Positions 33,625 to 37,366 of a DNA stretch of 64,000 nucleotides are shown in pieces. The DNA is taken from NCBI RefSeq assembly GCF_900110865.1, contig NZ_FOFD01000001.1:682001-746000 (forward strand), written 5' to 3'. The first letter of the stretch is position 1. Each line of letters starts with the position of its first letter. Source of the DNA: Natrinema salaciae. GTDB lineage: Archaea; Halobacteriota; Halobacteria; Halobacteriales; Natrialbaceae. The notes under the pieces are model-generated. The model did no database searches, was not told where the DNA came from, and saw nothing but the letters and a program-made list of their open reading frames with translations. A program made the translations under genes and the position numbers.

Positions 33625-33645
33625 CGTACCGTGGTTGGACCACGT

Positions 33646-34572
33646 ATGCGACGACGCCAACTCCTCGCCGTCACGACCGGCGCGGTCTGTGGACTTGCCG
33701 GCTGTACGGGGTCGCCGGTCGAACGGCTCCAAACCGACCGGTCCGGTTCCGACGGCGACGGGGCCGATCGAGACGGCAGCGAATCCGCGTCCGACGAGAT
33801 TACCGTCGGAAATCCCGACGAGGTCCCGTTCCCAGACGCCCACCCGCCACACGAACTCGAACTTCGCAACGACGGGGAGACGGATCGAACGGTCTCCGTT
33901 GCGATCACGATCAGCGGGACGGACGGCGACGGAGCCGACGGAAGCGGTGACGACACGACCGGCGACGACGGCACGGTGCTCGAGCGCGAGTTCGACCTCT
34001 CGGCGGACGAGACGCTCACGTTCGTCCTCGTCGAGCCCCGGTCGTACGCGGTCGCCGTCACGACGAGCGGCGACGGCGGCGAGTCGACCGTCACTGACGC
34101 CATCGACCGTCACCCGTTCGACTGCACGCGCTCTCGAACGAGGGTCACGTTCCGCGAGTCCGGCGTCGGAACGGAGTCGACGTCCACCGCGATCTCCTGT
34201 CCGGTGCCGGAGATCGCGGATGCCACGCTCGAGATCGGCGAGCAGGGGTGTGCCGACCGGACGGACGGCGACGACGCGACCGTCGAGTTCGCGGACGAAA
34301 CCGTCGTCGTCGACGGCGACATCACGACGCCGACGCCCTGTCACGTCCCGTCCATCGCCGGGACCGACTACGACGAGCGTCGCGACCTCCTCACGGTCAC
34401 CGTCGGCGTCGGTGAAGGGACCGACGAGAGCTGTATCGACTGTCTCGGAACCGCCGCATACGAGGCACGGATCGATCTCGAGGGACGGTATCCCGGCCGC
34501 GTCGAGGTCCGCCACGAGAGTCGGGGCGACGACCGGCGGATCACGACGACCGAGTGTTCGGCCGACTGGTAG
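33646..34572 (+). CDS. Tat-exported lipoprotein of unknown function (308 aa)
   Basis: Signal peptide MRRRQLLAVTTGAVCGLAGC with twin arginines and the lipobox LAGC, so it is exported by Tat and lipid-anchored. The mature part starts with a disordered, Asp/Glu/Ser/Gly-rich stretch, then two beta-rich domains (HPPHELELRNDGETDRTVSV and, later, DIAD-like repeats with paired cysteines: CTRSRTRV, CPVPEIAD, CADRTDGDD, CHVPSIAG, CIDCLG). The even spacing of Cys suggests disulphides. No enzymatic motif. The ATG at 33646 agrees with the promoter. Convergent with the epimerase gene, 12 bases apart. Role at the cell surface unknown. Confidence 0.75.
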   Translation: MRRRQLLAVTTGAVCGLAGCTGSPVERLQTDRSGSDGDGADRDGSESASDEITVGNPDEVPFPDAHPPHELELRNDGETDRTVSVAITISGTDGDGADGSGDDTTGDDGTVLEREFDLSADETLTFVLVEPRSYAVAVTTSGDGGESTVTDAIDRHPFDCTRSRTRVTFRESGVGTESTSTAISCPVPEIADATLEIGEQGCADRTDGDDATVEFADETVVVDGDITTPTPCHVPSIAGTDYDERRDLLTVTVGVGEGTDESCIDCLGTAAYEARIDLEGRYPGRVEVRHESRGDDRRITTTECSADW

Positions 34573-35176: not shown

Positions 35177-37366
35177 TTACCCGTCGGCCGCCGCGTTCGA
35201 CGCGTTTCCGGACTCGTTTTCGGACTCGTTTCCGAATCCTTCGTCTTCGATTTCGGTCTGGTTCGCCGTCTCGTTCGCGCCGCCGTCGGTCTCGTTGCCC
35301 TCACCGTCGCCCCCGCCGACGTCGCCCTCCTCGGGCGGTGAGAGGGAATCGCCCTCGCCCGGCGGGACGATCTGCATGACTGCGCCCGTGTCGCCCTCGG
35401 GAACGCCCACCTGGTTCGCGAGGACGTAGACGTTGCCGTCGGCGTCCTGCCCGAACTGGCGGACGAAGTAGGGGAAGGAGCCGTCCTCGGTTCCCGCCAC
35501 CTGGAGCTCCTCCATGTCCCAGAGTTCGTCTCGCGGGACGACCTCCCCGTCCGCCTGGCCGCCGGAACCGGCGTCGGCCGCGGTCGCGTTCCCGTCGGTT
35601 GCGTTCCCGTCGGTCGCGTTCATTTCGTCGGTTGCGTTCCCGTCGGTCGCGTTCTCGTCGGTTGCGTTCCCGTCGGTCGCGTTCATCGCGTCGGTTACGT
35701 TCCCGTCGGCGTCACCGGCCACCCTGTCGCCGCCGTCGTCGGGCTCCGACGCGGCGATAAGCGTTCCGTCGGGACTCTGGCGAGCGGGATCGGCCGTCCA
35801 GTCGCCGAATACGTATTTGCCCTCGAGGTCCCCGACGTCGCCGGCTTCGTACACGTGACCGCCGATGACGGTGATCCCGACCGTCTGTTCCCCGTAGACG
35901 TGGGGATACTCGACGATCGGATCCTGCAGCTCCTGCCCGTCGTACGGCGGTTCGTCGGGAGCCGCGTCGGGGCAGTCCTCCGGGGGCTCGCTCGGGCTGT
36001 CCGTGCTGAAGCAGTGCGTTCCCTCCTTGACGTTCCAGCCGTAGTTGCCGCCGGCCTCCACGAGGTTCACCTCCTCGAAGAGATTCTGTCCGGCGTCGGA
36101 ACTGAACAGTCGCCCGTCGCTGTCGAACGTGATGCCGAACGGATTGCGCATCCCCCACGCGTAGTACTCGTCGAGGCCGTCCTCCTCGCCGACCAGCGGG
36201 TTGTCGTCGGGGATTCCGTACGGCCGGTCCTCGCCCTCCGAATCGACGTCGATCCGGTGGATCCCGCCGAGCAGGTTCTCGCTGACGTCCTGGCCGTTGC
36301 CACCCGCGTTGCCGTCGTACCAGTCGTCGACGTGACCGAGCATATCGTCGTTGGCACCGCCGCCGTCGCCCATCGGGACGTAGAGGTAGCCGTCCGGTCC
36401 GAACGCCATCGGACCGGCGTCGTGGTTGTACTGCGGTTTCTGGAACTCCATGAGGACCCGCTCCGACTCGGGATCGGCCCGGCTCGTGTCTTCAGCCTGG
36501 AACTCCGAGACGACCTCGACGTGACTCCAGCCGTTCGGCGTCTCGCCGTTCGGCGGCGCGCTGTAGTGGACGAAAAAGCGCCCGTTCTCCGCGAACTCGG
36601 GGTGGAACTCGACGCCGAGCAGCCCCCGTTCGTCGTACTCCGATTCCGGGTCGGCGTATTCGCCCTGGAACGTCCCGAGTTCGACCATTCGATCGCTGAC
36701 GTCCAGGAACGGCTCGTCCTGGAGCCCCTCGTCGGTGACGACCCAGAGTTCACCCGTCTGGTCCGCGACGTAGTACCGGTCCTGCTCCTCGCCGGCGACC
36801 GCCATGTCCGTCGGGGCGGTCATCCCCTCCGCGACCGTCTGTAAGCCGATCTCCGGACCCTCGTCGAAGAAGGACTGTCGCTCGCCGTCCGACCCCGCCT
36901 GGGTCGCACCGCCACCGCCGCCGACCGAGATGTCCCCGCGCATCGTCGCGGAGTGGGGCACGCAGTAGTACGTCGCCATCTCGCTCGTCGCCTCGAACTC
37001 GAGGGTCTGCGTCTCCCCCTCCACGCTCAGGAGCTCGGTCCGTTCCAGCTCCTCGCCGTCCTCGCTCTCGATGACGAAGTTGTGCGGGAGCCCGTCGAGG
37101 TTCTCCCACGTGACCTCGTAGGTGGTCCCCTCCTCGAGCTCCAGCGTCGGGTTCGTTTCCCCCTCGATATCGTCGGGGGCGACGCCTTGCCAGCCGCTCG
37201 TCTCGCCCCCAAGTTCGATCGTCTCCGTCTCCTGAGCGAGGCCGACGCCGCCGAGCGCGGCGACGCCGCCCGCGGCCGCGGCCGCCTGTAGCACGCGGCG
37301 GCGGGACGGATAGCTGTCGGACGACGGTGGTACCGGGATCGATCGCTCGTCGGGTTGCTCGCTCAT
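35177..37366 (-). CDS. Tat-exported PQQ-type sugar dehydrogenase with N-terminal cupredoxin domain
   Basis: Probable periplasm-like aldose dehydrogenase. Residues about 21-45 form a Tat signal (SRRRVLQAAAAAGGVAALGG). Residues about 45-150 are a cupredoxin with a complete type-1 copper site: H95 (GLPHNF), C135, H138 and M142. A GSDH beta-propeller follows with NGRFFVHYSAPP, YNHDAGPMAFGPDGYLYVPMGDGG and YAWGMRNPFGITFDSDGRLF. An array of NAT sequons (encoded at 35581-35711) and a second sequon-rich acidic tail (about 680-729) interrupt or follow the propeller. Sugar oxidation with electrons passed to the attached copper domain is the likely reaction. Known GSDH homologues may use PQQ; the quinone is not visible. 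729 residues, about twice a bare GSDH domain. Confidence 0.88.
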   Translation of the reverse strand: MSEQPDERSIPVPPSSDSYPSRRRVLQAAAAAGGVAALGGVGLAQETETIELGGETSGWQGVAPDDIEGETNPTLELEEGTTYEVTWENLDGLPHNFVIESEDGEELERTELLSVEGETQTLEFEATSEMATYYCVPHSATMRGDISVGGGGGATQAGSDGERQSFFDEGPEIGLQTVAEGMTAPTDMAVAGEEQDRYYVADQTGELWVVTDEGLQDEPFLDVSDRMVELGTFQGEYADPESEYDERGLLGVEFHPEFAENGRFFVHYSAPPNGETPNGWSHVEVVSEFQAEDTSRADPESERVLMEFQKPQYNHDAGPMAFGPDGYLYVPMGDGGGANDDMLGHVDDWYDGNAGGNGQDVSENLLGGIHRIDVDSEGEDRPYGIPDDNPLVGEEDGLDEYYAWGMRNPFGITFDSDGRLFSSDAGQNLFEEVNLVEAGGNYGWNVKEGTHCFSTDSPSEPPEDCPDAAPDEPPYDGQELQDPIVEYPHVYGEQTVGITVIGGHVYEAGDVGDLEGKYVFGDWTADPARQSPDGTLIAASEPDDGGDRVAGDADGNVTDAMNATDGNATDENATDGNATDEMNATDGNATDGNATAADAGSGGQADGEVVPRDELWDMEELQVAGTEDGSFPYFVRQFGQDADGNVYVLANQVGVPEGDTGAVMQIVPPGEGDSLSPPEEGDVGGGDGEGNETDGGANETANQTEIEDEGFGNESENESGNASNAAADG
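35581..35711 (-). repeat. 15-bp tandem repeats encoding N-glycosylation sequons
   Basis: On the coding strand the unit is AACGCAACCGACGGG or the same with GCG in place of GCA, read as NATDG. Roughly eight sequon copies (one NVT and seven NAT) stand one after another, with two 18-base variants (NATDEM/ NATDAM type). The third position of the Ala codon switches between copies. The repeat lies inside the sugar dehydrogenase gene and its frame is preserved. Confidence 0.85.

Follow-up and report, generated by a model that had tools for sequence, protein, structure and literature searches.

Animal mucins are built on tandem repeats that are length-variable and disordered, offer dense glycan sites, and change quickly in sequence and copy number. 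Does a haloarchaeal enzyme carry anything comparable? The AglB-dependent N-glycoproteins of Haloferax volcanii, such as the S-layer glycoprotein and HVO_2160, are exported proteins with several N-X-S/T sites, and PMC8241124 reports one Hfx. volcanii protein with 19 confirmed N-glycosylation sites and an S-layer peptide in which N274 and N279, five residues apart, are both glycosylated. The archaeal oligosaccharyltransferase excludes Pro at the X position of the sequon (PMC8342417). Among enzymes and copper proteins, the PQQ-dependent sugar dehydrogenases (sGDH of A. calcoaceticus, 1cru; Asd of E. coli, 2g8s) share a six-bladed propeller with the related HHIP fold (7pgm), and halocyanins are small haloarchaeal blue copper lipoproteins with a plastocyanin-type domain and a lipobox (PMC8305020).

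The locus described here lies in a window of 64,000 nucleotides from Natrinema salaciae (contig NZ_FOFD01000001.1, positions 682,001 to 746,000), the whole stretch of DNA that was analysed. It encodes an exported fusion of a plastocyanin-type domain with a sugar dehydrogenase (Table 1), whose propeller insert and C-terminal tail are probably two N-glycan bristles, glycosylated by AglB and selected for their sequons. The preliminary description had called the product a sugar dehydrogenase; the GSDH domain bears this out, while the translation and Pfam matches replace a plain enzyme with a plastocyanin + GSDH fusion headed by a Tat-type signal.

Table 1. Features of the fusion gene and its product, in window coordinates
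Feature	Position	Strand	Basis
Plastocyanin + sugar dehydrogenase fusion gene, 729 residues	35177..37366	-	ORF and translation; Pfam PF00127, PF07995
Tat-type signal peptide, residues 21-45 (SRRRVLQ... GLAQ), without lipobox Cys	37232..37306	-	Translation, by motif
Plastocyanin-type copper domain, residues 83-148	36923..37120	-	PF00127, E 5e-9
GSDH-type six-bladed propeller, residues 184-667, interrupted by the insert	35366..36817	-	PF07995, model, Foldseek
Disordered propeller insert, residues 546-610	35537..35731	-	pLDDT <50; between strands 534-540 and 617-623
Eight N-X-T sequons in tandem, residues 556-595	35582..35701	-	Tandem repeat 35581-35709; sequon positions
Disordered acidic C-terminal tail, residues 685-729	35180..35314	-	pLDDT <50
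Six tail sequons, residues 691-723	35198..35296	-	Sequon positions

Profile, fold and active-site residues place the enzyme with the GSDH-type, PQQ-dependent sugar dehydrogenases, and PQQ-linked sugar oxidation is predicted. The PF07995 match spans residues 184-451 (E 4.7e-31, 108.7 bits against a cut-off of 25). H315, R407 and N408 are invariant across a 70-sequence alignment, and we take them to be equivalent to His144, Arg228 and Asn229 of the sGDH active site. An AlphaFold2 model built from the same alignment has a mean pLDDT of 80.2; 443 residues score at least 90, and most of the core lies above that value. Its Foldseek matches include HHIP, A. calcoaceticus sGDH, E. coli Asd and related propellers, with TM-scores by target of about 0.65-0.85 for sGDH and Asd. 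PqqE gave no match above cut-off in the window's genome. The signal peptide was assigned by motif alone (SRRRVLQ, then a hydrophobic stretch), and by this motif the protein carries the export signal of an AglB-type N-glycoprotein. Genes for methylmalonyl-CoA epimerase and methylmalonyl-CoA mutase flank the fusion gene; among the flanks examined, the mutase adjoins it in array-bearing orthologues and the epimerase lies on the other side in most. Elsewhere in the window, the plus strand at 33631-34572 encodes a protein of 313 residues that has a Tat-like start, a lipobox-like AGC and no Pfam match.

Where do the two segments sit on the enzyme? Both fall below pLDDT 50 (residues 546-610 and 685-729) and lie outside the modelled fold, which rules out buried sequons. 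With four strands per blade, blade 5 takes the insert between its strands C and D, the tail comes after strand C of blade 6, and the conserved His315 and Arg407-Asn408 are located before or at A strands. From this strand order, insert and tail would emerge on the propeller face that lies opposite to the catalytic pocket, where a dense glycan coat could form without blocking catalysis.

The tandem repeat in the insert has a period of 15 (8.2 copies) and also registers at period 63 (2.0 copies, 93% matches). Its translation, GNVTDAMNATDGNATDENATDGNATDEMNATDGNATDGNAT, contains one NVT and seven NAT sequons set 5 or 6 residues apart, the two 18-bp spacings being due to an added ATG (Met) codon; neither Lys nor Arg occurs in the array. 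With the tail's NET, NET, NQT, NES, NES and NAS, the protein has 14 N-X-S/T sites in all, every one in a segment predicted to be disordered and none with Pro at X; a scan of sequon positions found NP[ST] nowhere in the linkers. Both the 15-bp repeat with about eight sequons in a row and the six further sequons of the acidic tail, as first reported for this locus, were thus confirmed by the tandem-repeat scan, the translation and the sequon positions. Fourteen of the 15 linker Asn residues stand in sequons, against none of 19 in the core. When each segment's own residues were shuffled, the insert averaged 1.1 sequons against 8 in the real sequence and the tail 0.9 against 6; in neither segment did any of 2000 shuffles reach the observed count. 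Within 464 kb of the window's genome, the fusion gene holds the densest local sequon cluster among 327 genes, with 8 in 50 residues; the next have 7 and then 4.

Do the homologues treat these sequons as sites? In the 24 homologues whose insert holds three or more sequons, 92% of linker Asn residues (311 of 339) belong to a sequon, as opposed to 5% of core Asn residues (24 of 519); these pooled counts are not independent, because the rows are related. In the same linkers, S/T occurs at +2 of Asp in only 50 of 485 cases (10%), and of Gly, Ala and Glu in 7-10%. Together with the shuffles, the Asp comparison rules out chance or composition as the origin of the array. The propeller core of the array clade holds 8 sequons where 26.8 are expected, compared with little shortage in bacterial and other archaeal homologues (53 seen, 61.1 expected). 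These comparisons support the view that the linker sequons behave like N-glycosylation sites under selection. Glycosylation itself, proposed from the outset for this array, is a putative trait that sequence evolution backs well, and three lines of evidence favour it: selection on the sequons, which are kept as units change; predicted disorder; and an encoded AglB.

Could the array instead be a minisatellite that expanded in an acidic linker free of constraint, its sequons inherited from the founding unit and without any role? The window's array is a true tandem repeat at the DNA level and uses nearly uniform codons, and its copy number does change between near relatives, as the preliminary description had anticipated: L006 and L075, whose aligned parts are 99% identical, differ in whole in-frame units of six residues, one each in insert and tail. 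This comparison draws on near relatives belonging to species other than the window's own. Yet at one syntenic locus, where orthologues carry from 3 to 16 insert sequons, the units themselves differ: NATDG in the window, NETAEM and NETVDA in L006, NATNET in L083, NESADM/NETGGM in L085 and NATNAT in L077. Nearly all Asn residues nonetheless stay in sequons, including those in the non-repetitive parts of insert and tail, and the folded core is simultaneously sequon-depleted. We therefore regard an idle minisatellite as unlikely. The changing units also dispose of a calcium-binding DxNxDG-like repeat, suggested by DGNATDG, since NETAEM and NATNET do not keep that pattern.

The two linkers also appear to exchange sequence, because EDTQDEPI, a motif that is not a sequon, occurs in both the insert and the tail of L081, L069, L071 and L001. 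Across 61 genomes the exact pattern was found solely at the fusion gene, once or twice each time, which excludes a genome-wide linker motif; it is absent from the window's genome. On a tree of the folded core, the sequon label needs three changes, against 11.6 for shuffled labels. Sequons also occur in this propeller loop in a diverged paralogue clade (L051, L094), possibly through a separate gain.

In other lineages the loop or tail is Thr-rich (L013, L086), acidic and rich in Asp/Glu (L007, L088, L089), or short. Such fillings at the same places would fit acidic disordered tails that confer solubility on a halophile's protein, with N and T as small polar residues, Thr perhaps O-glycosylated, and no N-glycosylation; O-glycoprotein candidates are indeed named for Hfx. 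volcanii in PMC8241124. However, such tails leave unexplained why X-S/T follows 92% of Asn residues but few Asp, Gly, Ala or Glu, and we consider this account quite improbable. The Thr-rich or Asp/Glu-rich filling of the same loop suggests instead that the need is for a hydrated polar polymer and that N-glycans are one way to provide it.

Similar arrays occur elsewhere in the genome. The exact period-15 triple-sequon pattern is present at five loci of the window's genome, all exported-looking by motif: the fusion gene, a halocyanin-like protein with an NETG tail, a 379-residue frame with a signal-like start and 32 sequons (L104, region of G000:C7:246303), and a protein with a Tat-like start that is present twice. 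The halocyanin-like proteins L103/L063 (G000:C2:369328 onward) and L066 (G000:C8:170127 onward) end in NETG/GGNETG tails, with 9 and 7 sequons. In a 464-kb sample of this genome, with genes and signals called by simple rules, sequons account for 75 of 164 low-complexity Asn in exported proteins (the window's protein left out) and for 43 of 234 in those called non-exported (P = 8e-9). The period-15 pattern matches in 62 of 100 relatives, compared with a single genome for a reversed control pattern, although some of these matches are other than sequon arrays, for example the AACGT microsatellite of G070. Unusually many matches occur in G093, G037 and G054 (39, 19 and 22).

Surface anchoring, another early proposal, was not borne out by the translation: the signal has no Cys and hence no lipobox, the C-terminus (NASNAAADG) is not PGF-CTERM-like, and there is no terminal membrane segment. 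That no other anchor is visible in the fusion protein, and that NETG tails also occur on exported copper-domain relatives in the window's genome, might recommend the arrays as a binding device whose glycans tie the enzyme to the S-layer or the extracellular matrix, but this is very improbable: no binding partner or motif was found, the units change too freely for specific peptide contact, both halocyanin-like proteins of the genome already own a lipobox-like Cys, and the anchored-looking homologues L093 and L095 use a hydrophobic PGF-CTERM-like end.

Is the required enzyme present? The window's genome encodes AglB (PF02516, 83.9 bits) with the WWDYG motif and a TIXE-type motif, TVQE; judged from their first residues, nearby genes resemble glycosyltransferases, nucleotidyltransferases and sugar epimerases. 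AglB was found in nearly all complete relatives, so its presence or absence is uninformative as a predictor of arrays. The main discordant case is G022 (L069, L138), a 100%-complete relative with 12 linker sequons, in which neither profile nor protein search detected AglB. Its best match to the AglB-linked glycosyltransferase is a distant copy with no AglB in its surroundings. G022 also lacks the syntenic partner gene, which makes an assembly gap or a recent segmental loss possible.

Why would an enzyme carry two such segments? In the glycan-bristle reading that we favour, the fusion protein would be exported by the Tat route, and AglB would attach glycans to many of the 14 sites, although a spacing of 3 to 5 residues may leave some sequons unusable. 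Units of 15 to 18 bp would be gained by tandem duplication or lost, and copying between insert and tail would further alter the number of sites, while selection would keep linker Asn almost only as sequons. The glycans might in turn provide hydration and solubility in brine and resistance to proteases. More broadly, haloarchaea may possess a general, undescribed class of N-linked mucin-like domains: disordered tandem sequon arrays on exported proteins, expanded by slippage and inter-linker copying, selected for glycan sites rather than sequence, and replaceable by Thr-rich or polyacidic linkers and vice versa. We put this generalization forward tentatively, at somewhat less than even chances.

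If the sites are occupied, the repeat count would set the density of the coat and would be mutable in single steps. The syntenic orthologues, whose inserts hold 3 to 16 sequons, then form a natural series for the effects of N-glycan density on an enzyme in brine, and the arrays offer dense acceptor sequences for studies of archaeal AglB. Exported linkers in which Asn occurs almost only as sequons would also provide a sign, readable from sequence alone, of N-glycosylation as a selected trait.

How does the locus compare with known systems? A literature search that covered few subscription journals returned neither haloarchaeal sequon arrays nor a plastocyanin + GSDH fusion; the chemistry is known, and the length-variable tandem sequon form appears undescribed in the literature searched. 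Like sGDH, the fusion protein has the conserved His and Arg-Asn at active-site positions, but unlike sGDH and Asd it is joined to a plastocyanin-type domain, and the insert position, which takes up 11-37 residues in bacterial and other archaeal homologues, runs to 81-132 in the array clade. In contrast to the halocyanins, it combines its copper domain with a dehydrogenase and lacks a lipobox. With the Hfx. volcanii N-glycoproteins it shares export and multiple N-X-S/T sites; a tandem sequon array in a disordered enzyme insert does not appear in the accessible part of PMC8241124. Mucin repeats share with the array the form of length-variable disordered tandem repeats with dense glycan attachment sites, putative here, but mucins are O-linked at Ser/Thr, whereas this array consists of N-linked sequons, is archaeal, lies inside an enzyme and has no homology to them. 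With its sites occupied, it would be an archaeal N-linked counterpart of the mucin repeat.
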